This document shows positions 18,192-58,252 of a stretch of DNA of 64,000 nucleotides, one piece after another. A program made the position numbers and the translations under genes. The stretch spans positions 396,215-460,214 of the forward strand of contig NZ_LT700192.1 of the NCBI RefSeq assembly GCF_900155425.1, written 5' to 3'. The stretch is from Parabacteroides massiliensis. GTDB lineage: Bacteria; Bacteroidota; Bacteroidia; Bacteroidales; Tannerellaceae. Numbering within the stretch: position 1 is the stretch's first letter; each line of letters opens with the position of its first letter. The notes beneath the pieces were generated by a model. It did not search any database, was not told the DNA's origin, and saw only the letters and a program-made list of their open reading frames with translations.

Positions 18192-19859
18192 TTATGCCGT
18201 CATTTTTTCAAACTTATCCTGGCATATCTCCAGTTTATGCATGTAACAAATAAAAATAATCACGAATTTTCCATAAGAAGACGTTTTTCTTCCCTTTTTG
18301 TCTATTTTTCTCATCATTGAACATAGTTTCTTTATATTGAAGGCTATGGCAAAGAAGGTAAAATCCATCAGGACCTTGTCTTTTCCCATATGCCTGAAAC
18401 GGCGGTAAGCCATATTGGACTTCATCTGTCCGAAGACTGCCTCCGGTTCAATGCACCGCCTCCCCCTTTCCTTGATCCCTTCTTCTGAAGTCAATAATTC
18501 ACAGGCCTTTCGTTTATAGGCATTAAGCCGGTGATTGACCCTGATCGTCCTCTGGTTGGCCTTGGCCTTGTAACAGAGGCAGCGCAAGGGACACCCCTTG
18601 CATCGTATGGCGCGATAACAGGCGCTCTCGGAGATATAACCGCCCTCCGTCCGGGTTTGTACCGTACCGCTCCGGGACATGCGCTGCCCCATCGGTCATA
18701 TGTAATAATCTTCTTCCTCATTATAATAGAGGCTGTCGGGATGAAAGGTGTCAGGTTTATAGCGGGGACGGTGTTCCAAATGGAAACGATTGTATTTGAC
18801 GAACCCCTCAATGCCGGCTTCGTCCATGAAACGGTAGTTCTCTTCCGAGCCGTATCCGGAGTCGGCGACAACCCTTTTTGGGAAACGACCGTAACGGCCC
18901 GGGAAAGAGCCAAGGAATGGTATGAAGGTCAGCGTGTCGGTCGGGTTCGGAAAGAGGGCGAAGTCTGTGATGAATTGGTTCTCGGAGGATATCTGCAAAT
19001 TGTAGCCGGGCTTGGTTTGTCCATTACACATGGCGTCTTCCTTCATGCGCATGAAGGTGGCCGAGGGATCGGTCTTGGAGATGGAATTGCGGCCTTCCAT
19101 CTGTTCCAGGCGGCTGTTATATTCCGCTAGCTTCTCGCCATGCCTCTCCAATTCTTTGAACATCTTGTTCTTTCCTCTTTGCGCGGCCTTCTCTTCCTTT
19201 GTCTTTGCCTCAGGTGCCGAACCGAGTGCCTCCTTGAATTCCTTGGAGATCTCGCACAATGTCTGGGGGGTAAGCTCCAAGGTGTCAACATCGGCCGCCT
19301 TGTCTTGTGCCATCTGCTCGTTGATCTGCTGGAGTAACACACGGATTTTCTCCAACAGCTTCTCACGGTTCCTTTCCACGCTCTTGCGCCATACGAAGGT
19401 ATACTTGTTCGCCTTGGATTCTATCTTCGTCCCGTCAAGGTACTCGACCTCAAGCGTGACAAAACCTTTCTCTACCAATATCAACACTAAGAGGGTGAAT
19501 ATATGTCCGATCTCATTCTTGACACGGTTGCGGAAACGGTTGATGGTAGCGAAGTCAGGCTTCTGGTATCCCGACAGCCAGATATAATAGATGTCCCGGT
19601 ATAGGAGTTTCTCTATTTTTCGGCATGAGTATACGTTATTCATGTAACTATAAAGGATTACCATGAGCATCATTTTGGGATGATAAGGGCTGCGGCCACG
19701 CTCATGGTATAGTTTCTTGAAACCTGACAGGTCCAGGCTCTCGATAACCGACTTGAGGATACGTACAGGATCATCCTTAGGGATATCCCGGTCGATCCTC
19801 TGGGGAAAAAGTAGCGTTTGATCGGGATCATAACTTCTGAAGTGTAAATTTTCTGGCAT
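18192..19859 (-). pseudogene. IS1182-family transposase with an in-frame TGA
   Basis: On the minus strand one reading frame of about 555 codons encodes an IS1182-type DDE transposase (N-terminal DPDQTLLFPQRIDRDIPKDDPVR; C-terminal EAVFGQMKSNMAYRRFRHMG). It is cut by a single TGA at 18696-18698, in the context DYYI-stop-PMGQRM. Related transposases have Cys there (CPMGQ), so TGC/TGT to TGA is the likely change. The upstream 387-residue and downstream 166-residue parts share the frame. I could not define the terminal repeats or target duplication with confidence. Confidence 0.85.
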
Positions 19860-22202: not shown

Positions 22203-22950
22203 ATACTTCTGTTAATTAGTTTATTAAACTTCTAATTTTATGCTTCAGCTAGATTTAAAGACCTTTTTTTAAACCCTTTCCGGGATGACCTTTTCTTTCT
22301 GCCGACTTTTTTTTTAAGCTTTCATGCCCCATCTGAGTTTATGAGCCTTTTTTTTACGGCACGCATCAATAAGGAAGGAGGGATTAAGAAAAGTTTTGGA
22401 CGACAAAAAATGTCGGAGACAGCGAAGCCGTCCGGCGTTATTTTTTTCGGGACAAAGGGCGAAGACCGGAACTCTTTCGTATCCATCCACCGAAATAAAT
22501 TTGCCGTTCAAAAACAAAGGGTCTCAGATGGAGCTATGAAAAGCGCACATTAGGGAGGCAGAAAACAAGGAAAAGGGCAGTACGGAAAGTAAAACAAACC
22601 ATACGGTTTTGCCTGCAAAGCCGTATTCCTATCTCCGTGCCACTTGTGGCAGGGGGGAACAGGTTAGCAACGGACTGCCGGGACAAACGGTAAAAGGAAG
22701 GGGCTACAATACGGAAGAAGGAGGTCGTTTCGGCAATGCCGAAGCTCCACATGATGACGGTTGCAATCCCGCCCACGTTTGGAACTTCTCTTTTCAGCTT
22801 TATCCGAAATCAACCGCAAAGCAACTGACTGAGGGTAAACTTGGAATGAGAACAGTCATTCCGCTGAAGGGGAGGGTAGGGAAGAAGACTGCGTGAACGC
22901 AAAGACACTCTCGGATATGTAGTAAAAAAAGCGGCACCAGGCCGCTTCAA
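22203..22950. other. Gene-poor stretch with structured repeat element A
   Basis: No convincing gene is present. Short open frames lack codon bias and family resemblance. At 22655-22880 lies element A, a roughly 225-bp sequence related to element B at 24103-24312. Shared blocks are GACTGCCGGG, GTTTCGGC-NNN-GCCGAAG (a hairpin) and CAGTCATTCC-CTGAA followed by a G-rich tract. The bases between vary, but the hairpin arms are kept. Confidence 0.5.
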
Positions 22951-23349
22951 TCATTTGCTTGCTTTTTTCTTTTTAGAGACAGCCTTCTGTTTAGGCTGAT
23001 CCGGTTTTTCTTCTTCTTTTTCCGGAGCCGGATAAAACTTGGTGGCTACCATAACGATGCGGTTACGCTTCTCCCCACTTTTAGAATCCGTCCATTCTTC
23101 CGGCTTAAAGTAGCCTTCAACGATAATCAGCTCACCTTTTTTCAATACATCAAAGGAATCCAGCGCTTCATTCTTTCTCCAGGCTTCAATCCCCATGAAA
23201 GCGGAAACATAAGAGGTTTCTTCACCTGTCTTGTCTGCACGGCTGACTGCGATAGAAAAGCGTGCTACGCTTGCTGTTTCAAAACTACGGATTTCTGCAT
23301 CCTTACCGATAAAACCTGTTACTGCGAATGAATTTTCAATCTTTTTCAT
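22951..23349 (-). CDS. ssb: Second single-stranded DNA-binding protein
   Basis: A 132-residue SSB: ENSFAVTGFIGKDAEIRSF at the N-terminus, VARFSIAVSRADK, FMGIEAWRK and VLKKGELIIVEGYFKPEEW form the OB fold (to about residue 105). The tail is Pro/Glu/Lys rich and lysine-ended rather than having the acidic DDDIPF-type tip. It differs from the SSB at 13630-13971 and belongs to the accessory rather than the tra module. Confidence 0.88.
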   Translation of the reverse strand: MKKIENSFAVTGFIGKDAEIRSFETASVARFSIAVSRADKTGEETSYVSAFMGIEAWRKNEALDSFDVLKKGELIIVEGYFKPEEWTDSKSGEKRNRIVMVATKFYPAPEKEEEKPDQPKQKAVSKKKKASK

Positions 23350-23436
23350 ATCTCTGATTTTTTTAGAAGTTAATTAATCAATTTTACAGTGCAATAACTG
23401 ATTGTTGGCTTTGGGGTACACCATGAAAAAAGATAT

Positions 23437-23555
23437 AAATACTCTTTTTATGCTTGCCGAAAAAAGGAAAATTTGTAACTTTTTTATTGGTGAAGATGGC
23501 AGCAAATAATTCGGGTTAAATACGCTTTTTATGCAAGGCAAAAAAAGGAAGATTT
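23437..23555. repeat. Pair of 38-bp imperfect direct repeats upstream of the second ssb
   Basis: Two copies at 23437-23474 and 23518-23555 (81-bp spacing) share AAATAC-CTTTTTATGC, then GCC/GGC and AAAAAAGGAA-ATTT. They lie in the 300-bp gap between the minus-strand ssb and a plus-strand promoter. They may be binding sites for a regulator or replication protein. Confidence 0.5.
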
Positions 23556-23588
23556 CAGACGAATAACAACGTGGTGTTTGTGAATCGT

Positions 23589-23630
23589 CCCCTTATCCCC
23601 GTAAAAGGGGTTAGCAACAATCTATATTTG
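23589..23630 (+). promoter_or_regulatory. Promoter-like box with upstream hairpin
   Basis: TATATTTG at 23623-23630 matches the Bacteroidetes -7 box TAnnTTTG. A CCCCTT...AAGGGG hairpin at 23589-23610 covers the -33 area, where no good TTTG is seen. It would drive the small ORF at 23666 and the repeat element B downstream. Confidence 0.4.
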
Positions 23631-23665
23631 CAACGGAAAATGATTTGACTTCACTAAAAAATGAT

Positions 23666-23872
23666 ATGAAAAAGACAAAACTTGAAAATCAGCAACAGGT
23701 TTGGAAAGGATGCAAAAAACAACCGGTCAGACAGCAAGCATGGCACATTCTGAGAATATGGTCAGCCGCCTATCAACATACCGGAAGAAACATCTGCAAT
23801 TCCTTTAAAAAAATGAAGCCGAAGAATGAAGCATACAATATTCCACGTATCGAAAAAGTGACTGCACGATAA
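23666..23872 (+). CDS. Small basic hypothetical protein
   Basis: A possible 68-residue, strongly basic protein (MKKTKLENQQQVWKGCKKQPV..., ending RIEKVTAR) starting 35 bp after a promoter-like box. No family is recognised and no clear ribosome-binding site is seen. The transcript could instead be non-coding and serve the structured element at 24103-24312. Confidence 0.35.
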   Translation: MKKTKLENQQQVWKGCKKQPVRQQAWHILRIWSAAYQHTGRNICNSFKKMKPKNEAYNIPRIEKVTAR

Positions 23873-24102
23873 AATGAAAGGCTGCAACGGAAGAACAGAC
23901 TTGCGGATTCTGCGGGGAGAACATAACCATACAGGCACACAGCCACTACAACTGTTTCCGGAAAAAGAAGATTATACAACCGGAAAAACAGAAAGGCATC
24001 CACTCGGAGAAAAGCAAGCAAACGATTGAAGCGGACTGCCGATTTGGCGGCGAAATATCCGACTACCTATCTACGACCCTAAAAGGCTGGGATATATGGG
24101 TA

Positions 24103-24312
24103 AGAAACAGACTGCCGGGCAAATAAAAGGAGAGTGGCATAGCTGCCGGAAAGAGGTTGTTTCGGCGTGGCCGAAGATCCGAAAGCAGACCGGATATGCC
24201 TCTCTCATTTGCCTTCCCCATTCCTGGATTTCACACAATCACAGAGCGTACGAGTGACTATGAGAAATCTTGAAATGGGGACAGTCATTCCACTGAAAGG
24301 GTGGGTGGGAAA
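24103..24312. repeat. Structured repeat element B
   Basis: Related to element A at 22655-22880. It holds GACTGCCGGG, the hairpin TTCGGC-GTG-GCCGAA and the GGGACAGTCATTCC block followed by CTGAAAGGGTGGGTGGG. The hairpin loop differs from that of A while the stem is kept, suggesting selection on structure. Its right edge coincides with the break in the rdrB pseudogene. Confidence 0.5.
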
Positions 24313-24525
24313 CCTATGACTTCCTCCACGATAACGAATAGGGGTAGATTTCTAAAGAGAAGAGATCCGTTTCATATTTTTTATTTTCTGAGAAATTAGG
24401 ACAGAACATAAATTTGTTCTTTTCATACCTTTGAAAGTTCGTAAGCATTCGGTAAACCACGTTGCAAATTTTGTGAATTAGTTCCGAATCGGTGCTATTC
24501 GTAGTCGTTTCGGAACTAATAGTAT

Positions 24526-26091
24526 CTATTCGGAACAAGTTTGATGGGATTTTGTCCAATTACGTGGTAGAAGTTCTTCCATATTCTTCTTATCCCTCTC
24601 ATAATATGGGATTTTGCTCAGGACATCTTCCATCCAAATTCTAGGGTCTACTTCTGCTGATTTGCAGGTGGCAATCAGTGAGTACACGATGGCAGCCCTG
24701 TATGCGGATGCATCGTTGCCACAGAACAGATAGTTCTTTCTTCCCAAAGCCAAAGATCTTATGGCATTTTCTATGCGGTTGTCATCAATTTCTATTCTTC
24801 CGTCGTTTACGTATCTGGAAAGTCTTGGAAGGAGCGTGTACGTATATTCGATGGCTTTACCCATACGGCTTTTAGGAAGCACTCTAAGATAGGTGTCCTG
24901 TAGCCATTTTTCAAATTCAAGTATCAGCGGATAGGACTCATGGATACGTTTTTCCTTACGCTCTTCAGTAATGAGTCCTGCATGATTGGCATCAGATTCT
25001 ATCTTGTACAACTTTCCGATGTAGTGTATTGCCTGTGTGGCCAGGGTCCTGTTCTCTTCCAGGGCATCCACGTATTTTCTTCTGACATGTGCCCAGCAGC
25101 CGACCAGAGTGATTCCTTTCATCTGCTCAAACTGTTCGTAAGCTGCGTAGCCGTCACATTGCACAATGCCACGGTAGCATCCCAGCAGTTCACGGGCTAC
25201 CATGCCTGAACGGCTGCCACGGTCATAATGGAACATGACGTCCCCCGTGATGCCGTCGCGTACGCACCACTCATACCCCTTTTTCGCTTTATGTTTCTCA
25301 TTGTCCATAACAGGAATGACACTCTCGTCCACTTGTATATACTCACTGGAGAGTATCTTCTGTTTGAGCAGGTTGTATAGCAGCTTGAGTTTCTCCACCG
25401 CCATTTCATACCATCCGCACATGGTAGATTCGCTTATGCTGATTCCTGATTCGCGATACTGCTGTATCAGCCGGTAGAACGGGAGATGATACATGAACTT
25501 GCCGATGATAATGTCTGTCAGGACCGAGGAGCCTGCCATACATTTGCTGACCGGAACAAGAGGTAGAGGGTGAATCAGAATCTGCCTTTCCTCGGGGTAT
25601 TTCTCCATATCGGATTTACTTATCACTTTGTGACGGACGGTCTTCAGGATATATAATTTTGCCGGGACACGTTCCAGGCGTGAACTCTCTTCCTTTCCGA
25701 TTTCAATGAAATCATCCTTAAGCCTGCCTTCCTCGTCCGTTGTCCCTTCGGGGTAAAGATCAACAACTTCTACCGCAAGAGAAGATGTATCCAATGGCTT
25801 GCGGGCCGGCTTCTCCTTGACTTTTATGGTTCTAGTGATTTCTTCATCGCTCTTGCGGACTTCCTCCTCCATCCGGGATATTTCCATGGAGGACATTTCT
25901 TCTTTTGAGAACAGAAGAAGCTGGTTGGGATCAAGCGGAAGATTTTTTTCGCTCATCCGTCCGAAGACTTTTTTCCGGAGCCAGTACAGCGACTGCTCCA
26001 GCGAAGCAACCCTGCTGATAAGCATCGCTTTATCCTGGCGAAGCATTTCAATCTCTTCCAATAAGGCTTTTTCCTGTTCTTCCGTAAGCAT
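24526..26091 (-). CDS. tnpC: IS66 transposase TnpC
   Basis: A 521-residue DDE transposase with the IS66 layout: an N-terminal coiled coil (EEQEKALLEEIEMLRQDKAM), a leucine-zipper/zinc-like region, the catalytic domain with VDESVIPVMD, CDGYAAYEQF and the C-terminal RIEIDDNRIENAIRSLALGRKN motif. It looks intact. It is translated from the same strand as tnpA and tnpB. Confidence 0.93.
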   Translation of the reverse strand: MLTEEQEKALLEEIEMLRQDKAMLISRVASLEQSLYWLRKKVFGRMSEKNLPLDPNQLLLFSKEEMSSMEISRMEEEVRKSDEEITRTIKVKEKPARKPLDTSSLAVEVVDLYPEGTTDEEGRLKDDFIEIGKEESSRLERVPAKLYILKTVRHKVISKSDMEKYPEERQILIHPLPLVPVSKCMAGSSVLTDIIIGKFMYHLPFYRLIQQYRESGISISESTMCGWYEMAVEKLKLLYNLLKQKILSSEYIQVDESVIPVMDNEKHKAKKGYEWCVRDGITGDVMFHYDRGSRSGMVARELLGCYRGIVQCDGYAAYEQFEQMKGITLVGCWAHVRRKYVDALEENRTLATQAIHYIGKLYKIESDANHAGLITEERKEKRIHESYPLILEFEKWLQDTYLRVLPKSRMGKAIEYTYTLLPRLSRYVNDGRIEIDDNRIENAIRSLALGRKNYLFCGNDASAYRAAIVYSLIATCKSAEVDPRIWMEDVLSKIPYYERDKKNMEELLPRNWTKSHQTCSE

Positions 26092-26168
26092 CTATATCTC
26101 ATTGTTTCACAATGTAAATATACTAAAATCCAATGACATACAAAATCAAACAGAGTAAGAAAACGGCA

Positions 26169-26537
26169 CTATTTTCGAAGTTTCTGCAGGTTTTCAAGTC
26201 TCGTGCGACGGGAGTCGCGGGCTTCCATGATACCCTCCACAATCATGACAAGTTCCCGCCATTCTATATTTGTACAGACCTCATTCTCGTTGGCAGAATG
26301 AGGTTTACCTAAGGTACCGGCTTCCAGAAGTTTGGAATACAACACCATGCCGCCCGGCTCCCAATGCAGGAGCTTTATGCGATCACGGGCACGGTTTATG
26401 AAGATATACACATTGCCGTTGCAGGGATCCTGACCCATGGCGTCGGTGATGATACCGCTGAGAGTATGAAAGCTTTTGCGCATATCAGTCGGGCGATTAT
26501 ACAACAGATAGCGCATACTGTCATTAAGGCTGAACAT
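26169..26537 (-). CDS. tnpB: IS66 accessory protein TnpB
   Basis: Start set at the ATG at 26537 (MFSLNDSMRYLLYNRPTDMR), overlapping the tnpA stop by a few bases. The 122-residue product has the IS66 Orf2 signature: DMRKSFHTLSGII, GNVYIFINRARDRIKLLHWE and GGMVLYSKLLEAG. TnpB is required for IS66 transposition by an unknown mechanism. Confidence 0.92.
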   Translation of the reverse strand: MFSLNDSMRYLLYNRPTDMRKSFHTLSGIITDAMGQDPCNGNVYIFINRARDRIKLLHWEPGGMVLYSKLLEAGTLGKPHSANENEVCTNIEWRELVMIVEGIMEARDSRRTRLENLQKLRK

Positions 26538-27062
26538 GGCTGCAGGCCCGGATGATTGAAAACAGTTCCTTTTCATTTAGCTCACCGCAAATGCGTATGG
26601 CACCACCGGCCGGTGTACGTATTTCTATCTCTTTCAATCCGCTTGGCGTGCCCGGTGTACTTTTCTGTTTCCGTCCGCTTGTTCCGGCAAATGAAGGAAC
26701 CGGAACAAAAGATCCCCTGTGGGGAAGCTCGATAAACTCACCTTGGGGGGGAGTAAATTAAACTGTGTCATTGTTTTGTTTTTTCTTTTGGCCAGTAAAA
26801 TATCATTTCATATCGAATTTATATTCAGATATTTATCCGAAAGTAAAATTATGGTTTATCTGATAGATTAGAAACTGACACAGTTCAAATTACGACCTCC
26901 ACCTTGGACCGATTTACCCGATGATTGCTCGGCGGCATAACGGGATTTGCTGTCATAAAACCGCCATACAGGGATATTGAGTTCCTCTAATCTTGACTTA
27001 TAAGTCACTTTGTGCTCTTTGCAGTAGTTCATTATCTCTACTACTTCTTCTCGTGTCATCAT
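26524..27062 (-). pseudogene. tnpA: IS66 TnpA interrupted by MITE-2
   Basis: The N-terminal part (MTREEVVEIMNYCKEHKV..., ending SSGKSVQG) runs from 27062 to 26900. The C-terminal part (EFIELPHRGSFVPVPSF... ending RACSHVQP) runs from 26746 to 26524. A 153-bp MITE with 8-bp duplications CACCTTGG lies between. Removing it with one TSD copy gives a continuous IS66 OrfA of normal size (about 125 residues). The interruption may have silenced this IS66 copy. Confidence 0.9.
26747..26899. mobile_element. MITE-2 copy A (153 bp), in IS66 tnpA
   Basis: The ends are GGGGGAGTAAATTAAACTG and ACAGTTCAAATTACGACCTC, giving imperfect inverted repeats around AACTGTGTCA. It is flanked by the 8-bp direct repeats CACCTTGG (26739-26746, 26900-26907). 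Nearly identical copies are at 34145-34297 (reverse) and 57535-57684. It contains no gene. Confidence 0.93.
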
Positions 27063-28279
27063 AACTTTGCTTTTTGGACGTAAAGTTTATGACGGAAGTT
27101 TGAGACAAAAATACGTGGTTTACCGAATGCTTACGAAAGTTCTCAAAACCTATCAATGAATTAGTTTGTGCAAATTCACGTCTAATTTTACTCTTTATCA
27201 GCAAATACAAGAATACATACGGAGCATAAACTCGTTCATCTCCTTCATCTAAGAATCTCCGGTAAAAGTGATATAATATTTTTCGTTCTCCTTGATGTAT
27301 AGCATACGGACTCTGCATTTCCTCATTCGGCATTCCCATAATCTCCAAATCCTTATTTCTAATCGCATAATCCGGCTTGTATCCATTCACAGAAGGAGCT
27401 GCATCCACACGAAGTATATTGATTCGATGTTTTGTTTCATTGAACTGTTCTTCCAAAAATTCCTTCTCATAAAACAGCTTTCCTAAAGAACAGATTCGAC
27501 TATCAATCCCTTCCTCCGAATCATAACACAAATCATACAAGCAGACACGAATGAATGCTGCTATTTTCACCTACTCGTTCAAAGACAGGTTTATCTCGGA
27601 AAACAGACTAATCGAATCATACTCTTGTTTGAACCCAGTAGAAAGAAATTCATTTCCTTTGGGTAAGTTCACCAGTTCCGGATAATTCATTAATCCCAAC
27701 CAATTGAACTCAAAAACATCCAATGCCGCATTGATATGCGTATGTGTATCCGAAAGTTCTTGGTCCAATATCGCATTAATCCGAAAATTATCATGGTCTA
27801 TAATCGTTGGCCATATAAAAGAAGAACGTACATACCCTCGATTTAAATCCTGCTCAGCCAAATAGGGAATTATCAAATTATCTTCCCCTATATAGAGAGA
27901 CAATTCACGCCACCGAAGCAAATACTTGAATTGAACCAATGGAGACACACCTTTCATTGTTAGCATATCCTTGGAAAAATGGTTCAATATCAACAGACAA
28001 CGATTTAAGAAAGGAAAAATCTGAGGTTTATCTTTTCCTCCATCGTGAAGCCAAACATCTTTAAGCACATTTTTCAATAGACAGATTTCAGTATGCGAAA
28101 ATGCCTGTTCCTCGCGTTTTACAATCTCCACCACATAATCCAATAATTCGCCCTCGCTTTCCGGATTACTAATCTTTTCGGCCACAAGGTTCAGTGGAAA
28201 ATCATAGAATATACTCTTTATCGTCGCTCTTAATAAATCCATGATTGTTTAGATACAATTTACCAATCAAACATATTAC

Positions 28280-31168
28280 TTATTCTTGATTTTCAACTCT
28301 ATTTTCGGCAGGTTCAGGATTATTCACAACCTCTCCCTCCGGCATCGCATCAACCGCTACTACTGGTTCATTTTCCTGTTGTTCTTCCTGTGGCTGCTGT
28401 GACTGCTCCGCATGTTGCGATTTTGCCATATGTCTTTCTTTCCACTGATTATACAAAGTTTCCTTTTCTTTCATAGTTTTTATATTTTCCCCGTCTGGGT
28501 AAATACCTTTCAAATCTTTATCTGCCCATGAAGCAAAATAAGGATGCTCTCGTAGGTTTTCTCTTATTTTATCTCTTTTTTTTACTTTACTCAACAACTT
28601 TGACAATTCATTCCATTCTGGAATTCGGTTTTCATTAGTAGGCTCCTTTTTATCTATAGTAAACACAGCCTCAAACACATCTTTCTGTCTTGAATTCTCA
28701 ACCTTCTCTAAAAATGTCTCCAATGGTTTAATGAAATTAAACTTTATCTTGTAACGTTCGTTTTCATCATCTATTCCATAAATTGCCTTCCCACTGTTTT
28801 GAATAGTCTTGTAGAATTTGCCCATTACTTCATAAGAGACCTTCTGCTTGCTTACATTCCTATAACTTCTTGCATTCTCAAAAAGCGAAGAGATGATTTC
28901 CACATTCCGAAGTACTCCATCAGAAAGAAATTTGTGGAAATTTTGTTCTCTTTTTTCCAAAAACTTATAATCCGACCTATTATTACACTCTTTTAGCATT
29001 CGGTTCAACATGGATTCTGACAATTTTTGAGCGACCTCATAAACACCATCAAAAATACCATTAAACCTTTTGTATGCAAACTCAGGATTTACTACATTAT
29101 AAAACGGTGCAAGTATATCAAATAGGAAAAAGCCTGTCTTGTCGGTAAATTGTGACAAATAAGCAGGAACCACATTTTTTCGTACTAAGTCTCCAGCTTT
29201 TAATATATCCATCTTCTCCTTTGAACGTACCGGATAACGTATCGTCCAAATAAAAAATTCAATAAGATTAAAATCTTTCGCAAATTCCTTTTCTTTATCC
29301 CCCTTCTCTTTTTTCTTTTCTTTGTCATTATCTTCTAAAGAACTGATTTCATCCCATTCCTCCTTCAATTTTCTCATTTGCGCTATAAGCGACTTGCCAT
29401 CAATCACTCGAAGATCAAAAGTCTGCTTATTACTCTTTGGCAACAATTCTCCAGGAATATACGTAAAATAGCTTCCTCCCACCAATCTTTGCAACGCATT
29501 GGTATGTATAAAACGGCTATCAATTCTACTGATTTCTTTCTCGTCTTCTCTATTTTTCGGAAAAATATTTCCTGGTGTTTCAGTGATAGATTCATAAGCC
29601 TCATAAAGCCTCATTGAAAGCAAACTCTCCAAATAGAACAATAAAGCAGAGTCCTCTTCCGATAGGTATTCTTTCTCTAACAGAGAAATGATATAAAGCA
29701 CATCACCACAAGAAAGATTATAACCAAAATTCAATGAACTAATAATACTTTTCACCAAAAACTGTGTGTCCGTATCAGTTTTACTTTCCGAATTACTCTT
29801 TCCTTCCCCTTCTATTTCATCGAAATCTATTTGCTCATAATCCCTATCATTCAATCCCTTAAGGATTTTTTGTCCCAAAACCTCCACTATTTCCTTATTT
29901 AAATAAGTTCCATTTTCATTGAAAACTATCCTTGATAGTTTTTCCTGTATTTCTTTAGAGAATCGGGCATTCCATATCGTATGGAAATAGGTCTTGAACC
30001 ATTGTTTGTTATTACGTAAATCTTTTTCCTCTTCCGGATTAGTGGAATCTTTGATTGGCTTCATCGAAACCAGCAACCCTATTAGGTTCATCAACTCCCT
30101 CAGATTATTGGGAATAATAGGAGACACAAGTCCACGACTATTATAGAACAAATAGCGGGTGCGTGAAAATATCAGTTCCATGACACGCTGTTTAAGCGGG
30201 ATATACGTACCAGCCTCCACTACACTTAGCCATTCTTCTTGATTATCATTCCCTTCTATGAAAAGAGGTCCCTCTGCAATGGAATAAGTTTTAGGCATAT
30301 TTACACGACTGGCTACCGGCATCAGTTTGGATATATATTTCTTAGCCATTTCATATATCTCATTATCATCCACCAATCCTTCTACAACCTTTCCATCCAC
30401 ATGAGAAAGACCGCTTTTTTTTGCCAATGCCACCGCATCTCTCAATTGCGACACCTTTACCGAAACAAATACAATGCAGTTAGGTATGGTTAAGAACTTC
30501 CTTATTTGTTCGCACATCTCATAAGCATGTTCCATATTCAAGTCTACATCGTCTATTGGAATAATAACCACCTCTTTTTCACTGAATCGCAAATATAAAT
30601 TTACAGCCTCTTCTATGTGTTTCCTAAGCTCCAGCCCAGCGGCCAATACATCCAAACTCTCCAGATTGTCTATACCCTTTTCCCTTTCGCGTAGCAATAT
30701 ACCCAAACATTGTCTAACTTTTTGAAATTGTTCTATCAATTTTCGATTCAAATCCCTATCTAAACTTCCGCTATCCTTCTTCGCTTGAATGTATTTCAGA
30801 TATAACTTGCCTATAACCAGTTCCAACACATTGTGACATTTATCAAAGAATGAAGGATCTATGATATCTAAGATTTCAATTTTTCTCTTTTTCAGACTGT
30901 TGACTCCGATATTCTCTAAATATTGTGAACATGTATCAGAACACCTATTTTTCAATATATCCAAAACCGTTTGCATACAAGAAGTTTTTCCTTCCCCTCT
31001 TTCCCCACAAAACCAAACACATTTCAATGTTCGATTTTCTTTATCGCCCCAATACCTATCAACCAACGATAATGCTTGCTCATATTGATCGGAGAATATA
31101 GAATCTTCAAATCTAGAATCCTCACGAACGACATCATATTCCTGACCTATTTTATATTTTATATCATT
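28280..31168 (-). pseudogene. rdrA: RdrA-like P-loop ATPase (RADAR), 5' end cut by IS4
   Basis: An AT-rich minus-strand frame of about 960 codons with Walker A GERGEGKTSC and a likely Walker B in VVIIPIDDVDLNM, as in KAP/STAND-like NTPases. The frame stays open upstream to the IS4 end (KIGQEYDVVREDSRFEDSIF...) with no ATG, so the true start has been lost. A TTG at 31066 is a poor alternative. The C-terminus is Gln/Glu rich and disordered. RdrA is the ATPase that works with RdrB in RADAR. Its size, fold and position directly upstream of a deaminase gene support the call. Confidence 0.68.
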
Positions 31169-31170
31169 GC

Positions 31171-32472
31171 TGTCCCATTAAAATCTAAAATTGCTCTTTG
31201 AAATATTTGAAATATAGTTAGTTACGGAGATTTTTCGATTAAACGGATTTCAATTCTCATCTTTGCGGCCTAAAATAGGCTGGCATATGCATAAGGATAA
31301 ATTCGTCTTCTCTCAACTGATAGTCTTCTTAAATAGAAATAAGTTCAACTACATCGTTCGTAAGCATGATGGAGACAAGTATGTGAAGCATTTCACTTGC
31401 TGGAATCAACTGCTTTCTTTGATGTTTGGCCAGCTCTCCAATCGTGAGAGTCTGCGAGACTTGATTGTCGCTCTTGATGCTCACCATTCGAAATGCTATC
31501 ATTTAGGGATGGGTCGGAATGTCTCAAGATCATCCTTGGCGAGAGCCAATCAAGACAGGGACTATCACATTTTTGAGGAATATGCCTACTACTTGGTAAA
31601 TGAAGCAAGGCAGAAGCGTGTTACCGATATATTCAAACTCGGAGGAAACGTTTATGCCTTTGATTCAACAACAATTGATTTATGCCTTTCCGTGTTTTGG
31701 TGGGCAAAGTTTCGTAAGAAGAAAGGTGGCATCAAAGTACATACATTGTACGATGTGGAAACGCAGATACCGGCATTCTTCCATATCACCGAAGCTTCCG
31801 TACATGATTCAAAGGTTATGAATGAAATTCCCTATGAGTCTGGTTCCTACTATATCTTTGACCGTGCTTACAACAACTTCAAGATGTTGTATAGAATTAT
31901 CAGATAGGTGCCTATTTGTTGTCAGAGCCAAGAAGAATCTTCAATACAAGCCTATCAAGTGGAAGCGAAGGATGCCCAAAAATGTACTATCGGATATGGC
32001 TATCGGGGTGACTGGATTTTATCCGAAGCAATACTATCCTGAGCCGCTTCGTTTGGTCAGATATTGGGATGAAGAACAGAACCGTGAGTTTGTTTTCTTA
32101 ACGAATGCAACACACATTTCCCCTCTTCAAGTTGCCGAACTTTACAAGAATCGCTGGCAAGTGGAGCTGTTTTTCAAATGGCTAAAGCAGCACCTCAAAA
32201 TTAAAAAGTTCTGGGGAACTACCGAAAATGCCGTTCGAATACAAATCTATGCTGCTATATGTACCTACTGTCTGGTGGCAATCGTTCAACACGACATGCA
32301 ATTGGATAGAAGTACATATGAAGTTCTTCAGATATTGAGCATCTCGCTGACCGATAAAACGCCTCTTCGAGACCTCTTTGACAAAACTAAATTTCAAAAT
32401 GACAAAGAACGATTTGGACCTGATGGACCAAGTTTATTTGATTTTTAATAACGTCCCAATTTTAATGGGACA
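31171..32472 (+). mobile_element. IS4-family insertion sequence, copy 1 (complete)
   Basis: A 1302-bp element with perfect 14-bp terminal repeats TGTCCCATTAAAAT at both ends. The flanks give no clean target duplication. The 10 bp before the left end (ATATCATTGC) are the same as those before the left end of the truncated copy at 47263, so the true end may extend further or the two copies share an origin. It has cut off the start of rdrA. Confidence 0.88.
31287..32448 (+). pseudogene. IS4-family transposase with frameshift
   Basis: Starts MHKDKFVFSQLIVFLN. The catalytic motifs are visible: FDSTTIDL (D), FDRAYNNF (D) and the YKNRWQVELFFKWLKQ signature (Y-R-E-K). The frame breaks at about 31905 and resumes in frame +1. 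Adding one T in GAATTATC and one in CTATTTG would give RIYQIGAYFVVRAKKN, so two nearby 1-base losses are likely. The same change is in the copy at 47.3 kb, so the shift predates duplication. A programmed -1 frameshift does not fit the direction. Confidence 0.8.
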
Positions 32473-32630
32473 CTAGTGATTTTATATATTTCATATGTAC
32501 AATTTCTGAAACTTATTAAAAAATCAAACGAATGTTCCCCAAACTCATACAAACACTTTTTCACAAATCCCTGCTCATATCTCGAAGCAATCAATATGTA
32601 ATCGTTTGTAGAATCAACAAACAAGTGCAA
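32473..32630 (-). other. Short open frame next to IS4, possible detached rdrA 5' fragment
   Basis: A 53-codon minus-strand frame ending at the IS4 right edge (HLFVDSTNDYILIASRYEQG... IYKITS). It looks protein-like but has no ATG; it begins with TTG after a TAA. It lies exactly where the missing 5' part of rdrA would be, in the same orientation. No family is recognised, so it may equally be unrelated. Confidence 0.3.
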
Positions 32631-32847: not shown

Positions 32848-33363
32848 ATGTACGAGGAATATATCAAATCAGAAAGGACACCTGCCGGAAAAGTTTTGGA
32901 GCATATTTTGAGAAAAGCCAAAATGACCAGAAAGCAACTGTCCATTGAGGCAGGCATATATCCACAAAGAATCAGTGAACTAATCAAAGGTACAAGGGAT
33001 TTCACGGTTCAGCAGTCCATTTCCATAGAAAAAGCATTGAAAATAGGTATTGAAGGCTATTTCTATAAGATACAAGCCAATTATGAAGTTTATGCTTATC
33101 TGACAAAAAGAGAACAGGAAAAACACCCTGACTTGTCGAAATTCAGCAAGGCATTATTTTGGGACACGAGAATTGAAAGGATTAACTGGACGAAAAATAA
33201 GGAATGGGTCATTCAGCGCATATTTGAATACGGCAATAATCAGGAAATAGAGGAAGCCATCCGGTTTTACGGCAAAGAAACTATACAGGCTGTATTGCAG
33301 AGAATAAGCAGTAAATGGAAGGAAGAGGCAAGAGAAAGAAACTTTAAAAAATTTGTACAATGA
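32848..33363 (+). CDS. HTH antitoxin of an AbiE-type toxin-antitoxin pair
   Basis: A 171-residue protein. Residues 13-65 form an XRE-type helix-turn-helix (TRKQLSIEAGIYPQRISELIKG). Residues 95-150 resemble the DUF6922-like segment common next to AbiEii toxins (LFWDTRIERINWTKNKEWVIQ...EAIRFYG). The gene overlaps the toxin by 4 bp. A palindrome at the promoter suggests autoregulation. It belongs to the antitoxin role of AbiEi but is built on an HTH fold. Confidence 0.78.
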   Translation: MYEEYIKSERTPAGKVLEHILRKAKMTRKQLSIEAGIYPQRISELIKGTRDFTVQQSISIEKALKIGIEGYFYKIQANYEVYAYLTKREQEKHPDLSKFSKALFWDTRIERINWTKNKEWVIQRIFEYGNNQEIEEAIRFYGKETIQAVLQRISSKWKEEARERNFKKFVQ

Positions 33364-34046
33364 AACTTCATTATGAAACTGTATCTCCCCAGTTAGTCCA
33401 CTGCTTGAAAACAATTCTGCAATCTGATGTTTTCAAGGATTTCAACTTGGTTGGTGGAACATGCCTAAGCCTTCAAATAGGACACAGACGTTCCATAGAT
33501 ATAGACTTATTTACAGCAATAGACTATGGAAGTATGGATACCACCGCTATAAAAGTTTTCTTACAAGAAAATTTCCCATATTCAGAAAATTTGAACAGTT
33601 TAGACCAACCAGCTTTGGGATATTCTGTCCGTATCGGTGAATCTCCAGCTGATTGCATAAAGGTAGACCTCTTCTACACGGAAAACTTTATCTTCCCCAT
33701 CAAATATACAGACGGCATCAGGCTTGCGGATATAAGAGAGATTGCAGCGATGAAAATTAAAGCAATTACTCAAGACGAACCCAGACAAAAAGACTTTTGG
33801 GACATTTACGAACTTTGCAACATGTACAGCCTGAAAGAAATGACAGAATGGGCAATGATGCGTGATGAATGGAGCTTTACGAAAAAAGACATAGAAACCG
33901 GATTTGAAAGAATTTTCGATGTCAAAGAGTGCCCTGAAGGGATAGATTGTTATAGAGGATATGCGTGGGAACTTATCAGCATGGATCTAAAAACAGCCGC
34001 AGAGGAATATTTTAATCAGGAAAAAGAATCATCCAATCCAGAATGA
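33360..34046 (+). CDS. abiEii: AbiEii/AbiGii-family nucleotidyltransferase toxin
   Basis: A 228-residue protein with the nucleotidyltransferase motif FNLVGGTCLSLQIGHRRSIDIDLF (GG...DxD), followed by a helical domain with VDLFY and KIKAITQDEPRQKDFWDIYEL (the conserved Lys and D-x-x-D region). This matches AbiEii toxins, which add nucleotides to tRNA or other targets and cause growth arrest in phage-infected cells. All the motifs are present, so the toxin appears intact. Confidence 0.87.
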   Translation: MKLHYETVSPQLVHCLKTILQSDVFKDFNLVGGTCLSLQIGHRRSIDIDLFTAIDYGSMDTTAIKVFLQENFPYSENLNSLDQPALGYSVRIGESPADCIKVDLFYTENFIFPIKYTDGIRLADIREIAAMKIKAITQDEPRQKDFWDIYELCNMYSLKEMTEWAMMRDEWSFTKKDIETGFERIFDVKECPEGIDCYRGYAWELISMDLKTAAEEYFNQEKESSNPE

Positions 34047-34144
34047 CAACAACCACGGCAACAAAATAAATAGGAAAAAGGAGGGAGAAGAGGCATAATT
34101 CACCAGCTTTAACTTAATTGCAACAAGTTCAAATCATCAGTGAC

Positions 34145-34297
34145 GAGGTCGTAATTTGAACTGTGTCAGTTTCTAATCTATCAGATAAACCATAATTTTA
34201 CTTTCGGATAAATATCTGAATATAAATTCGATATGAAATGATATTTTACTGGCCAAAAGAAAAAACAAAACAATGACACAGTTTAATTTACTCCCCC
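34145..34297. mobile_element. MITE-2 copy B (153 bp, reverse), at the hipA 3' end
   Basis: Same sequence as copy A in reverse orientation. The flanks are TCAGTGAC (34137-34144) and TCAGTGCC (34298-34305), an 8-bp duplication with one mismatch. Its insertion removed the last codons of hipA and supplied a new reading-frame extension. Confidence 0.88.
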
Positions 34298-35546
34298 TCA
34301 GTGCCAATCCATCCAATACATGTTGGATTTTATCAGATATGGCTTTATCTATGCCATACGTGACGCACAATGATTGAAATTTGCTTACAGCATCGAACAC
34401 CTGTAATATCTTCTTTTTAGGATTTTCCACAAAATCCTCGGCGAAATTGACAAAATCACTTGTGGCCAAGGCCGATCTCTTGCCCATCACACCCATAGAA
34501 TGAATATGTGCAGAAGAATTTTCCCATGTATTTGCCGTGAACATTACATCATATGCAGGTGATAAACGCCACCTCCCTGTCTTATCCATGATAAACGATA
34601 TGTTCTTATTATGGTCATCAGATATACCTGCGACATAATTAAATACCATTCTGATAAATATCTGGTCTTTGTCTTCCTGGGGAAGTTTCAGAGTCTCTGC
34701 CAGCCAACATAGCTTCATATAATCATCTGCACCTGGCATAATGGCCGCAAGGGTCTGGCTAAGAATCTTGTCTCCATCCTTGCTATCAAATCTTTCCGTT
34801 ACGAAATGATTTCTTCCATCAATCTCTTTCAGAAAGCATGGCATCATGTTGATTCCTGCCACCTTTGCCATTTCGCTATATACCATTTCTATCTCTGTGG
34901 TAGGAGAGTCATCTGCTTCTTTAAATTTTATGATATACTGCTTAAAATTTTCAGGCAAATCCACCTGGCCGGAACGGAACTCTTCCGTTTCGAGGTTATA
35001 GGCAATCACCGCCTTCGGGCGCATGCCACCGGCAGAAGTTCCGAGATATATTAACTTCTTCATCGTGAGGCTATCCTCCGGTGATATGACAGCAGCATCT
35101 CGATCATTATATATTTTAGAAGCCAAAGTTGCCAATGATGACATGTTTACTGACTCATGGATGGCATCATCATTAAATTCCGGTTCAAATTCCAATGCTC
35201 CCATAGCCCTCTTGCCAATATAAGAGAGCTTCAATAGAGGCAATGATTCCGTAACCTTTATATTGTTATCCGTGAGCCATTGGTCAAATAGGGAAGCCCC
35301 CCATTTGTCAGGAAGCGCATCTGCAAGAAATTCCGGAAGCCCTTGATATAATTTATCTTTATTCCCATAGAAAGACGCAAACAAAGGGATTCTCTTAGGA
35401 TGTGTGGAAGGACATATATCATAATCTTGTTTCCTATACTCATCCGTAAATTGGAATACAGAACAATGCTTTTCAAAGTCCCAATTCAATTTGCCAATAC
35501 AAGTTCCCCACAGATATACATTCACTATAATTGGCTCTTTCTTCAT
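34173..35546 (-). CDS. hipA: HipA-like kinase toxin with MITE-encoded tail
   Basis: A full-length HipA (about 417 native residues). It has the N-terminal HipA domain, the Gly-rich loop GTSAGGMRPKAVIAY, the catalytic NYVAGISDDHNKN and the metal-binding LSPAYDVMF. HipA kinases phosphorylate translation factors such as GltX. From residue about 417 the frame enters MITE-2 (LALRG-SKLNCVIV...), replacing the inferred native end LALMI with about 40 hydrophobic residues. The start overlaps hipB by ATGA. Whether the tail affects activity is unknown. Confidence 0.88.
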   Translation of the reverse strand: MKKEPIIVNVYLWGTCIGKLNWDFEKHCSVFQFTDEYRKQDYDICPSTHPKRIPLFASFYGNKDKLYQGLPEFLADALPDKWGASLFDQWLTDNNIKVTESLPLLKLSYIGKRAMGALEFEPEFNDDAIHESVNMSSLATLASKIYNDRDAAVISPEDSLTMKKLIYLGTSAGGMRPKAVIAYNLETEEFRSGQVDLPENFKQYIIKFKEADDSPTTEIEMVYSEMAKVAGINMMPCFLKEIDGRNHFVTERFDSKDGDKILSQTLAAIMPGADDYMKLCWLAETLKLPQEDKDQIFIRMVFNYVAGISDDHNKNISFIMDKTGRWRLSPAYDVMFTANTWENSSAHIHSMGVMGKRSALATSDFVNFAEDFVENPKKKILQVFDAVSKFQSLCVTYGIDKAISDKIQHVLDGLALRGSKLNCVIVLFFLLASKISFHIEFIFRYLSESKIMVYLID

Positions 35547-35881
35547 ACCATCTTACGTTTACTGTTAATTCTTTGTATTTTCTTACCTGTTTCTTCATTG
35601 ATAAGGAAAGGGGAGTCTGGAAGTTCCGGTACCAAATCGACAACGCCTTCAAGAGTTCCACTTATACGCAAAATCTTAAGCAATGTACTTAGGGCAATAT
35701 CACTTACTTTGCAAGATTCTATTCTCTTAATAGTAACGATAGATACTCCTGCCTTATCCGCAAATTCTTGCTGAGAAAAACAACAACTAAGTCTTATAGC
35801 CTTAACTCTCTTGCAGATTTCCTTAACAATACATTCATCTGAAAATTCGTATATTGTATATGTATCATATAACCTTTTCAT
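35543..35881 (-). CDS. hipB: HipB-like HTH antitoxin
   Basis: A 112-residue protein. Residues 22-70 form an XRE HTH (FSQQEFADKAGVSIVTIKRIESCK) followed by a linker that probably reaches the toxin. It is transcribed with and overlaps hipA by 4 bp. Its upstream region includes a 35-bp segment shared with an ISL3-like relic at 37.4 kb. Confidence 0.82.
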   Translation of the reverse strand: MKRLYDTYTIYEFSDECIVKEICKRVKAIRLSCCFSQQEFADKAGVSIVTIKRIESCKVSDIALSTLLKILRISGTLEGVVDLVPELPDSPFLINEETGKKIQRINSKRKMV

Positions 35882-35916
35882 AGAGAAAAAACATATTTAG
35901 GTATCATTTTTGATAT

Positions 35917-35951
35917 AAAGGTAACACAATTATCTTACATGTGGAATCAAA
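35917..35951. repeat. 35-bp direct repeat flanking the DUF4143 cassette (left copy)
   Basis: Shares 34 of 35 bases with 37415-37449 in the same orientation. The right copy lies in an ISL3-like transposase relic, and this left copy reads the same protein segment (GNTIILHVESK) without the stop codon found on the right. The two copies bracket the DUF4143 gene and its promoter repeats. Confidence 0.7.
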
Positions 35952-39532: not shown

Positions 39533-40774
39533 ATGATAATAGAATCAATAAAAATAGAAAATTTCAGGGGTATAGAATATTTAGAAATACCTGCACTGGA
39601 CGAACATATAAATCTTTTCGTCGGTGTCAACGGAGCTGGTAAAACAAGCGTATTGGACTCCTTTTCACTTGTGCTTTCTTGGCTTTTGGCCAGAATCAGA
39701 AATCCGAGATCATCCGGTACACCCATCGCTGAATCGGATATAAAAAACTATTCGAAAAGTGTATGTTCAATCTCTATCAAAGTAAAAAATTCCGGTGAAT
39801 GGATTTTATACCGTTCTAAATCTTATGCTAAAAATAAAGCAGATAACGGAAAAACTGAACTCCAGGATATGATGGAATATATCAATGAGATACATCATAG
39901 CGCAACTCAGGGAGGAAATATACCAGTAATTATGTATTATCCGGTAAACCAGGCCATCAACAATGCACCGGCTCATCTGAAAAGAGGAGGAAAAGAACCT
40001 GAAATTTGGGACACCTATGAAAATGCACTAAAAGGAAATACTGAATTCCGTTCTTTTTTTGAATGGTATAGAAAACAAGAAGATAACGAGAATGAACACA
40101 TATGTGACAACAGAAATTATCAGGATAAAAAACTTTCTACAATCAGAGAAGCCATAAAAAGATTCTTCCCTGATTTCAGTGATTTTCGTGTTCGTCGTAA
40201 TCCTCAAAGATATGTTATTCAAAAAGATTCTGAAATCATTGAATTCAACCAATTATCACAAGGAGAAAAATGTTACTTGGCTTTAGTATGTGATCTTGCA
40301 CGAAGGTTCGCTATGGCCAATCCAAACAGTGACTACCCACTACAAGGAGAAGGTATTGTGTTCATCGATGAAGTTGATTTGCATTTACACCCTAAATGGC
40401 AAATGGAAATTGTTGATAAATTGCGTACGATTTTTCCTAATTGTCAATTCTTCTTGTCAAGCCATTCACCTCATGTACTTTCTGATCTTACTTCCCACCA
40501 GATTTTTTTATTGGATAATGGCAATCTGAATCATACATCATTCAATCCCTATGGAAAACTAGTATTAACCAATTACTTTTCCATTTCAATGGCAAGAAAC
40601 TTGAAAGTAAAAGAACGAATAAATGATGCATATAAGGCATTAAAAGAAAACGATTCCACTACTTTTCAAAAAATCTTCGAAGAATTATCCAAGCAATTAG
40701 GTAAATTAGATCCGGATATGGTTAATCTAAAATTGGAATCTGTAAGAAAAGAGAACGATGAAAAAAATAAATAA
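39533..40774 (+). CDS. ptuA: PtuA-like AAA ATPase of a Septu-type defence system
   Basis: A 413-residue SMC/RecF-like ATPase: IENFRGIEYLEI then Walker A GVNGAGKTS at about residue 31, the ABC signature LSQGEKC at about residue 242, and Walker B GIVFIDEVDLHLHP at about residue 275 with the switch FLSSHSPHVLSD. Between them is a long insert with NQAINNAPAHLKRGG. This matches the ATPase of Septu and retron-Eco7-type effectors. It overlaps the HNH partner gene by 17 bp. Confidence 0.87.
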   Translation: MIIESIKIENFRGIEYLEIPALDEHINLFVGVNGAGKTSVLDSFSLVLSWLLARIRNPRSSGTPIAESDIKNYSKSVCSISIKVKNSGEWILYRSKSYAKNKADNGKTELQDMMEYINEIHHSATQGGNIPVIMYYPVNQAINNAPAHLKRGGKEPEIWDTYENALKGNTEFRSFFEWYRKQEDNENEHICDNRNYQDKKLSTIREAIKRFFPDFSDFRVRRNPQRYVIQKDSEIIEFNQLSQGEKCYLALVCDLARRFAMANPNSDYPLQGEGIVFIDEVDLHLHPKWQMEIVDKLRTIFPNCQFFLSSHSPHVLSDLTSHQIFLLDNGNLNHTSFNPYGKLVLTNYFSISMARNLKVKERINDAYKALKENDSTTFQKIFEELSKQLGKLDPDMVNLKLESVRKENDEKNK

Positions 40775-41384
40775 ATCAGAGGAGCCTTCCTCCTTAACTA
40801 AATTCAGGCGTAAAAATTCTTCCAATAAATGGGAGGACATTCATACAGAACAAAATCTGTCTATATATGAAGATTGCCTGCTTCAATGCATGGATGACCC
40901 AAATTACTTATGTGGCTATACAGAGATAAAACTTGAGGCCAACTACCACATTGATCACTTCATAAAAAGAGATATTTCCCCACGCCAAACATTTGATTGG
41001 CAAAATATGATTGCAGCAGTCCACGATTCCAAATTTGGAGCCGATTTTAAGGATAAGACTGTCAAAAAGAACGATTATAACAAACAGTTGAAAAAATACA
41101 ACCACATTCTTAATCCAGTGACAGACAATATAGAAGGTCGTTTTATTTTTTCAACAAATGGCGTTATCGAACCTGCAAATAGAAATGATACAGCTGCAGC
41201 AGAAACCATCCGTGTCTTTAATTTACAGGAGGATTCCCTGAACAGCAGACGAAAACAGGCAATGGAAAATACAAGAAGATTATTGGAACAAATGGATAAG
41301 GAAGCAGTAATTGGATATTTACAAGGAGAAGAATTTCCGAGTGCTATTGCTTATGAAATTTCCAGAAATCAACAAATTCACTAA
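40758..41384 (+). CDS. ptuB: PtuB-like HNH endonuclease of a Septu-type defence system
   Basis: A 208-residue protein with the HNH core YHIDHFIKRDISPRQTFDWQNMIAA (HIDH and W-N). The usual zinc-knuckle cysteines are largely missing: CGYTE replaces CxYC, and AVHDSKFGAD replaces CxxCNxxK. Overlap with the ATPase and gene order (ATPase then HNH) fit PtuAB, in which PtuA holds the nuclease that degrades nucleic acid on infection. The C-terminal half is charged and helical. Confidence 0.78.
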   Translation: MKKINKSEEPSSLTKFRRKNSSNKWEDIHTEQNLSIYEDCLLQCMDDPNYLCGYTEIKLEANYHIDHFIKRDISPRQTFDWQNMIAAVHDSKFGADFKDKTVKKNDYNKQLKKYNHILNPVTDNIEGRFIFSTNGVIEPANRNDTAAAETIRVFNLQEDSLNSRRKQAMENTRRLLEQMDKEAVIGYLQGEEFPSAIAYEISRNQQIH

Positions 41385-47211: not shown

Positions 47212-47262
47212 AAATAATCTGTTTGATGATAAATTACAAAATACATTGCTGGATATCATTGC

Positions 47263-48248
47263 TGTCCCATTAAAATCTAAAATTGCTCTTTGAAATATTT
47301 GAAATATAGTTAGTTACGGAGATTTTTCGATTAAACGGATTTCAATTCTCATCTTTGCGGCCTAAAATAGGCTGGCATATGCATAAGGATAAATTCGTCT
47401 TCTCTCAACTGATAGTCTTCTTAAATAGAAATAAGTTCAACTACATCGTTCGTAAGCATGATGGAGACAAGTATGTGAAGCATTTCACTTGCTGGAATCA
47501 ACTGCTTTCTTTGATGTTTGGCCAGCTCTCCAATCGTGAGAGTCTGCGAGACTTGATTGTCGCTCTTGATGCTCACCATTCGAAATGCTATCATTTAGGG
47601 ATGGGTCGGAATGTCTCAAGATCATCCTTGGCGAGAGCCAATCAAGACAGGGACTATCACATTTTTGAGGAATATGCCTACTACTTGGTAAATGAAGCAA
47701 GGCAGAAGCGTGTTACCGATATATTCAAACTCGGAGGAAACGTTTATGCCTTTGATTCAACAACAATTGATTTATGCCTTTCCGTGTTTTGGTGGGCAAA
47801 GTTTCGTAAGAAGAAAGGTGGCATCAAAGTACATACATTGTACGATGTGGAAACGCAGATACCGGCATTCTTCCATATCACCGAAGCTTCCGTACATGAT
47901 TCAAAGGTTATGAATGAAATTCCCTATGAGTCTGGTTCCTACTATATCTTTGACCGTGCTTACAACAACTTCAAGATGTTGTATAGAATTATCAGATAGG
48001 TGCCTATTTGTTGTCAGAGCCAAGAAGAATCTTCAATACAAGCCTATCAAGTGGAAGCGAAGGATGCCCAAAAATGTACTATCGGATATGGCTATCGGGG
48101 TGACTGGATTTTATCCGAAGCAATACTATCCTGAGCCGCTTCGTTTGGTCAGATATTGGGATGAAGAACAGAACCGTGAGTTTGTTTTCTTAACGAATGC
48201 AACACACATTTCCCCTCTTCAAGTTGCCGAACTTTACAAGAATCGCTG
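47263..48248 (+). mobile_element. IS4-family insertion sequence, copy 2 (3'-truncated)
   Basis: Matches copy 1 (31171-32156) over 986 bp without a difference that I noticed, including the frameshift. It then ends abruptly after AAGAATCGCTG, followed by 22 bp and the susC start. The transposase catalytic Glu region and the right end are missing, so it cannot move. It appears to mark a deletion that fused the IS to the susC leader. Confidence 0.9.
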
Positions 48249-57497: not shown

Positions 57498-58252
57498 ATG
57501 ATCACCAAAAACAAAGTTACGGAATTATTTTGTAGGGGGAAATTAAACTGTGTCATTGTTTTGTTTTTTCTTTTGGCCAGTAAAATATCATTTCATATCG
57601 AATTTATATTCAGATATTTATCCGAAAGTAAAATTATGGTTTATCTGATAGATTAGAAACTGACACAGTTCAAATTACGACCTCATTTTGTATGGCAGAT
57701 GATTTCTGCAAGTTTTTTGATGCTATGACGGAAAGATATACATTAAAATCAGACAAAAAACGGCGTTATCACCGTGAGTCGACCATGTCAAAGGCGGAAA
57801 TTATGCTGATATTGATACTCTTTCATGATTCAGGCTATCGCTGTTTAAAGCATTTCAATTTGGATAAAGTTTGCAAACACCTCCGCCATCTTTTCCCCAA
57901 TGTTGTCTCCTGCAACCGTTTCGTGGAACTTGAAAGAGAGGTTGCCGTTCCATTGGCCCTGTTCATCAAGAAGGTACTGTTGGGTAAATGTACCGGAATA
58001 AGTTTCGTAGACAGTACTCCTTTGAGAGTGTGTCGAAATCAGCGCATACATATTCACAAAGTATTCAAGGGTATAGCTCAAAGAGGAAAATGTTCTATGG
58101 GATGGTTCTTTGGATTCAAGCTACACCTGATTTGCAATGAAAAAGGAGAACTTCTGAATTTCATGATTACACCCGGAGACGTAGACGACAGGAAACCTCT
58201 GGAATACAAAGCATTCATGGATTTCTTTCTAAGCAATAGGCCTAACGAGTAA
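57498..58252 (+). pseudogene. IS982-family transposase, split by MITE-2 and 3'-truncated
   Basis: Starts MITKNKVTELFC at 57498, is split by MITE-2 copy C (57535-57684) with TSD ATTTTGTA, and resumes MADDFCKFFDAMTERYTLK. The catalytic FVDSTPLRVCRNQRI and the GWFFGFKLHLICN motif are typical of IS982 (DDE). It ends at DFFLSNRPNE, roughly two thirds of a normal length. Confidence 0.85.
57535..57684. mobile_element. MITE-2 copy C (150 bp), in an IS982 relic
   Basis: Same as copies A and B but 3 bp shorter next to its G5 end. Perfect 8-bp duplications ATTTTGTA (57527-57534, 57685-57692). Confidence 0.93.

Follow-up and report, generated by a model that had tools for sequence, protein, structure and literature searches.

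Probable remnant of a divergent RADAR operon, interrupted by four lesions, among conjugative-element genes of Parabacteroides massiliensis

Introduction

The RADAR systems of E. coli, C. rodentium and S. suis, which we take to be the organisms behind the solved structures, consist of two adjacent genes, one for an AAA+ ATPase with Walker A and B motifs (RdrA) and the other for an ADA-type deaminase (RdrB). In this study we analysed a stretch of 64,000 nucleotides from Parabacteroides massiliensis (contig NZ_LT700192.1, positions 396,215 to 460,214; hereafter called the window), the minus strand of which carries, at 24375-32494, what is left of a divergent RADAR operon, namely a gene for an AAA+ ATPase of RdrA type and the first half of one for a deaminase of RdrB type. 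A RADAR-like locus wrecked by at least four lesions had been proposed here in a first-pass annotation, which is in our view largely right; the identification draws on HMM matches, on profile comparisons with solved RdrA and RdrB, and on 32 related loci, mainly from Bacteroidales. The two-gene arrangement is that of the three described systems but the sequence is divergent, both genes are broken and the catalytic half of RdrB is missing.

RADAR is rare, having been found in 270 of about 38,000 genomes, and the RdrB of E. coli has H152, H154, H498 and H530 as zinc ligands and E501 as catalytic residue (both statements are from the accessible part of PMC9994260). Another system to be considered is the CARF-adenosine deaminase of type III CRISPR (PADLOC CARF_ADA), represented by PDB 9ebt, a CRISPR-associated ring nuclease and adenosine deaminase.

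Results

The rdrA-like and rdrB-like genes

The remnant and the elements inserted into it are laid out as follows in the window:

24375-24440, minus: rdrB-like gene, the final 22 of the surviving codons, beyond which the C-terminal half is missing
24441-27134, minus: IS66-family element, with TnpB_IS66 (26169-26576) and DDE_Tnp_IS66 (24526-26091); 8-bp target duplication GAAAGTTC
26747-26899: 153-bp repeat inside the IS66 element; 8-bp duplication CACCTTGG
27135-27570, minus: rdrB-like gene, second piece, in the same frame past a TAG and stop-free up to the IS66 element
27571-28242, minus: rdrB-like gene, first 223 codons, with HxH (DTHTHIN), ending at the in-frame TAG
28280-31164, minus: rdrA-like AAA+ ATPase gene, all but the first codons; 961 open codons, Walker A GERGEGKTS, Walker B IIPIDDVDLN
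31165-32478, plus: IS4-type insertion element, with DUF4372 and DDE_Tnp_1 in its first open reading frame (ORF); 9-bp target duplication ATTTTATAT
32479-32494, minus: rdrA start codon and first codons, beyond the IS4-type element (of these bases, 32479-32487 form the target duplication)

The ORFs and alignments place the rdrA-like gene (28280-31164) and the rdrB-like gene directly side by side on the minus strand, as a first-pass annotation of the window had claimed, and the P-loop and the HxH motif to which it pointed are both there. The rdrA ORF listed at 28280-31066 (928 aa, minus) stays open up to the edge of the insertion element at 31164; the resulting 961-codon frame has no internal stop, against a mean of 80.7 and a minimum of 56 in 1000 base shuffles. 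Its GC content is 35.7% versus 50.8% for the tra block. The product matches the RdrA models of PADLOC (E 8.2e-16) and NCBIfam (91 bits), and possesses the Walker A and B motifs that characterize the RADAR ATPase, the residues of which (G24, G26, K27, D172 and D173) are invariant in the alignment of its relatives. A profile built from 20 RdrA-like proteins matches solved RdrA in PDB 8fnu (E 3.8e-25), 8hr7 and 8fnt, which aligns with the ATPase domain. Searching a large protein set brought 700 RdrA relatives at E 1e-5; among the best 120 of them, P0002 is 73-74% identical to the window protein, P0003 71%, and the others 32-45%.

What is left of rdrB amounts to about 388 residues (223 + 142 + 22) out of the 828 found in the Bacteroides caecigallinarum relative (L009), about 440 being missing. 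The amber codon reported earlier is real: a single in-frame TAG follows 27571-28242, at a place where 25 full-length relatives read through in one frame (since the aligner misplaced the last five residues of the first piece, the residue standing at the TAG is not named). When the intact L009 RdrB was searched for in the whole assembly (23 contigs, 99.9% complete according to the tool used), only its residues 1-377, with one TAG, were matched, at the window locus, and no C-terminal half was found elsewhere. Thus, the HxH pair (H169 and H171) is kept, while the counterparts of H539, E542, H571 and D773/D774 are missing, which leaves the RADAR deaminase site without its catalytic glutamate and two of its four zinc ligands. 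Because the HxH pair is all that remains of this site, we regard the operon as a RADAR remnant and not as a working member of the family.

Related loci

Genome contigs were scanned once with the RdrA alignment, which revealed 32 loci. By their titles, 28 are from Bacteroidales (for some of these taxa, an assignment that we presume), one each from 'Bacteroidia' and 'bacterium', and the last two from Erysipelothrix (L038) and Clostridia (L040); a Parabacteroides acidifaciens contig is among the 32. The first rdrB piece of the window is matched in 30 of them. In the host's family, an RdrA match of any kind was found in 6 of 123 genomes, that of the window included; in another genome of the genus (G033) it lies on a contig of 109494 bases. 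Two Bacteroides loci, in B. caecigallinarum and B. muris (L024), may serve for comparison: they have the same gene order, with a short intergenic gap, RdrA is 38-39% identical to that of the window in the best segment, and identity with the first RdrB piece is 44-46%; unlike in the window, each gene is one open frame (RdrB of 828 and 841 aa, RdrA of 922 and 972 aa, respectively).

Five intact relatives provided RdrB proteins that match the RdrB models of PADLOC (E 8e-20 to 3e-36) and NCBIfam (100-165 bits). A profile of 18 related RdrB matches PDB 8fnv and 8fnw (E 7.3e-68), and the solved RdrB aligns with the HxH, HVGED and RxGH motifs of the intact relatives; H169, H171, H539, E542, H571, D773 and D774 are among the residues invariant in the 18, all of which have the four zinc histidines and the catalytic glutamate. 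The deaminase part of intact relatives also matches PADLOC CARF_ADA and PDB 9ebt weakly. However, unlike the CARF-adenosine deaminase, the five intact RdrB show Pfam A_deaminase and no CARF match, the RdrB models score much higher, and the partner is an RdrA ATPase.

Seven of the 32 loci were set aside when the integrity of the operons was assessed. In six (L015, L021, L028, L030, L032 and L038) one gene is cut by, missing at or ending beside a contig end (in L021, a stop lies 24 bases from it), and L040 has only a 208-aa RdrA match. Both genes are full length in 23 of the 25 fully visible operons; those of L011 and L036 are interrupted.

Several observations weigh against assigning the window genes to RADAR. 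The equivalog cut-offs of NCBIfam are not reached, either by the window RdrA (91.1 bits for a cut-off of 600) or by the five intact RdrB (cut-off of 800). Taken alone, the window RdrA matched no PDB chain by phmmer at 0.01, and no family was found for the rdrB pieces, whether in the PADLOC and Pfam scans (the two longer pieces and the ORF holding the third) or in the NCBIfam scan (the two longer pieces). Besides, P0002, the nearest non-self protein, is known as a protein only, not as DNA. The cut-offs seem to be tuned to nearer relatives. They are also what could be invoked in favour of an unrelated pair, a KAP-type ATPase and an amidohydrolase, which would have nothing to do with RADAR. The family-profile check suggested in the first-pass annotation gave no such pair, matching RdrA and RdrB instead: RdrA and RdrB themselves come first both in PDB and among the family models, the gene order is the same, and the aligned intact relatives keep the zinc histidines and the catalytic glutamate. 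We therefore consider an unrelated pair extremely improbable, and the RADAR identity proposed in that annotation holds.

The four lesions

The same annotation described a locus destroyed by four lesions. All four are real, although the rdrA 5′ end, the content of the IS66 element and the left edge of rdrB had to be corrected. At the rdrA end, the gene is indeed cut by the IS4-type element, but its 5′ end was not lost, since the start and first codons survive on the far side: the reading of the far flank agrees with the N-terminus of P0002, MKYIKYKIG (compared by eye; P0002 is 74% identical). The ends of this element were fixed by comparison with a third, 80%-identical copy elsewhere. It is a simple insertion with a perfect 9-bp duplication, ATTTTATAT, and its transposase frame is split over two ORFs, 31263-31907 and 31822-32448. 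Recombination between the IS4-type copies at 31165 and 47257 had been a candidate cause of the loss of the rdrA 5′ end; it was dropped once the third copy had set the element ends and the 9-bp duplication appeared. The second copy (47257-48248) matches the first at 100% identity throughout but is truncated immediately ahead of 48271, where an ORF begins that is SusC-like by eye.

It could be argued that the remnant is still active, the long RdrA frame being expressed from an internal start and acting alone: 961 codons are open, the Walker motifs are kept and none of 77 family-invariant columns is broken. But the authentic start is severed by the IS4-type element, there is no in-frame ATG before the P-loop of the window gene (the earliest start in the ORF list being a TTG at 31066), and the protein-database version of the ORF begins after the P-loop. 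Furthermore, both activities are needed by RADAR, as stated in the accessible part of PMC9994260. Residual activity is thus very unlikely.

In rdrB, the IS66 element claimed earlier as complete, with a clean 8-bp target duplication, does span 24441-27134 between copies of GAAAGTTC; it additionally carries the nested 153-bp repeat, itself within an 8-bp duplication, CACCTTGG. Contig C2 has an IS66-like stretch (77-82% identical, in pieces) that continues through this place without the repeat, near-identical copies of which are found in the window at 34145-34300 and about 57540-57684. The former copy of this mobile-looking repeat supplies the last residues of a hipA-like gene, at its 3′ end.

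The 3′ break of rdrB is, as reported, a break against other DNA, namely the backbone of the element. RdrB homology ends at about 24375, and this left edge replaces the earlier one, 24314, because 22719-24374 is backbone shared (95%) with L080, from a genome of the same genus.

Genomic setting and the insert-free site

The remnant lies between two blocks of backbone:

22719-24374: backbone 95% shared with a same-genus contig that has no RADAR here; includes the ssb gene (22951-23349)
34107-35919: backbone to the right of the insert, with a weakly hipA-like gene (34173-35546) and a helix-turn-helix (HTH) gene (35543-35881)

Comparison of the same site in related strains, as recommended in the first-pass annotation, brought two same-genus backbone copies without the insert, in which the right backbone closely follows the left one. 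In one of them, a contig of 4533 bases (L080), window position 24374 is joined to 34107 with 34 bases between; in the other (L081), 24109 is joined to 34304 with 296 bases between, and neither has RADAR. Since these backbones join without it, the RADAR segment is an optional insert.

As for the surroundings, a conjugative-transposon ATPase of the TraG family scores above its cut-off in the window, while MobC-like and RadC-like genes are below theirs. A group II intron reverse transcriptase (10754-12577) is found among the conjugation genes. An HTH gene and an AbiEii-type nucleotidyltransferase gene (33360-34046) adjoin the RADAR remnant, at 32848-34046, and further on lies a Septu-like ptuA/ptuB pair (39533-41384), both frames of which are open (the PADLOC match is strong, the NCBIfam PtuA and PtuB matches are below cut-off). 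In a plasmid collection, six records were matched over short lengths, in the IS4-type element and the nested repeat, and a scan of viral contigs gave one distant match.

A third gene in related operons

Six of the 32 loci have a third ORF, of 231-252 aa, at -11 to +10 bases from its neighbour:

L018, 12635-13330: third gene, after rdrB
L034, 11596-12300: third gene, after rdrB
L033, 7015-7761: third gene, before rdrA
L035, 7081-7791: third gene, before rdrA
L037, 7037-7795: third gene, before rdrA
L039, 7081-7791: third gene, before rdrA

The L035 and L039 proteins are identical in the alignment. No such cyclase-like gene was seen beside the window copy. All six match PADLOC PycC (PDLC02368; best E 3.2e-31, 3.7e-18 for L018), while a Pfam scan of four of the proteins gave nothing above cut-off. 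A profile of 9 sequences of this type matched PDB 7r65 (E 0.0004) and 8jsz (E 0.008). The AlphaFold model built from 9 sequences has a predicted local distance difference test score (pLDDT) of 79.8, and its best Foldseek match is a cUMP synthase, 7r65 (E 1.2e-9, template-modelling score 0.65, root-mean-square deviation 5.9). PycC has two conserved metal-binding aspartates, according to the accessible part of PMC11224242. In none of the 9 rows does the strand facing the first Asp-rich strand of 7r65 have an aspartate, and the second site varies; which aspartate of 7r65 binds metal is our own reading of that structure. The third gene product has the fold of class III cyclases, those of Pycsar being the nearest, and apparently lacks the first metal-binding aspartate. 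Any role in regulation or sensing is conjecture. It is conceivable, though we would not bet on it, that there is a divergent Bacteroidales branch of RADAR missed by the curated cut-offs, some members of which have a cyclase-derived sensor of a nucleotide signal controlling RADAR.

Related proteins of another kind, about 200-250 aa long, lie beside RADAR in three of the 32 loci (L010, 13434-14195; L025, 7218-7814; L031, 7093-7794); no curated family is above cut-off for them, and by eye they look like membrane proteins.

Discussion

The locus is very probably the relic, no longer functional, of a divergent RADAR operon of Bacteroidales, once accessory cargo together with the AbiEii-type pair among conjugative-element genes of a Parabacteroides-like host. 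The intact ancestor would have worked as published for RADAR, with a deaminase shell of RdrB, fed by a ring of RdrA, converting ATP and dATP to ITP and dITP during infection. Whichever lesion came first would have inactivated the operon, and the others presumably piled up recently and for the most part randomly, the region being variable and rich in insertions.

The first-pass annotation took so many lesions to suggest that selection on a costly system was relaxed or negative, a proposal that goes further than the data. In its stronger form, it holds that RADAR, and RdrB especially, is costly and that its inactivation was favoured. It is true that rdrB takes three of the four lesions, that two insertions fall within about 4 kb, and that overexpression of RdrB without phage leads to ITP accumulation and toxicity, as described in the accessible part of PMC9994260. 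However, eight transposase or intron gene sets were counted in the 64 kb (at 10754, 18192-19859, 20750, 53683 and 57692, plus IS66 and the two IS4-type elements, shorter remnants being omitted), from which 0.53 insertions are expected in 4.2 kb; two or more have a probability of about 0.10, so that the insertion load of the locus is not clearly above the window background. Moreover, 23 of the 25 fully visible related operons look intact, and the first lesion, already killing the operon, sets all later ones free. A loss driven by selection is therefore rather unlikely, and unproven; the evidence does not separate it from chance decay.

Whatever its cause, the decay looks recent, because no family-invariant site is broken. 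In a leave-one-out count, which registers a column only if every other row is the same there, the window breaks 0 of the 77 invariant columns of RdrA, against 0-7 for single relatives; for the two longer RdrB pieces the counts are 0 of 14 and 0 of 15, against 0-1. The coding sequence would thus have stayed under constraint until a short time ago.

In a literature search that left most subscription journals outside, there was no paper pairing RADAR with defence in Bacteroides or Bacteroidales, or with a Pycsar uridylate cyclase; in the accessible part of PMC11890865 the searched words occur in the reference list only. For a specialist, the cyclase-like third gene of some relatives may be the feature worth pursuing. 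Since the window RdrA and the five related RdrB scanned score far below the NCBIfam cut-offs, counts of RADAR in Bacteroidales may be too low. The window itself shows how RADAR cargo dies among the genes of a conjugative element, at a place the insert-free state of which is visible in two genomes of the same genus.

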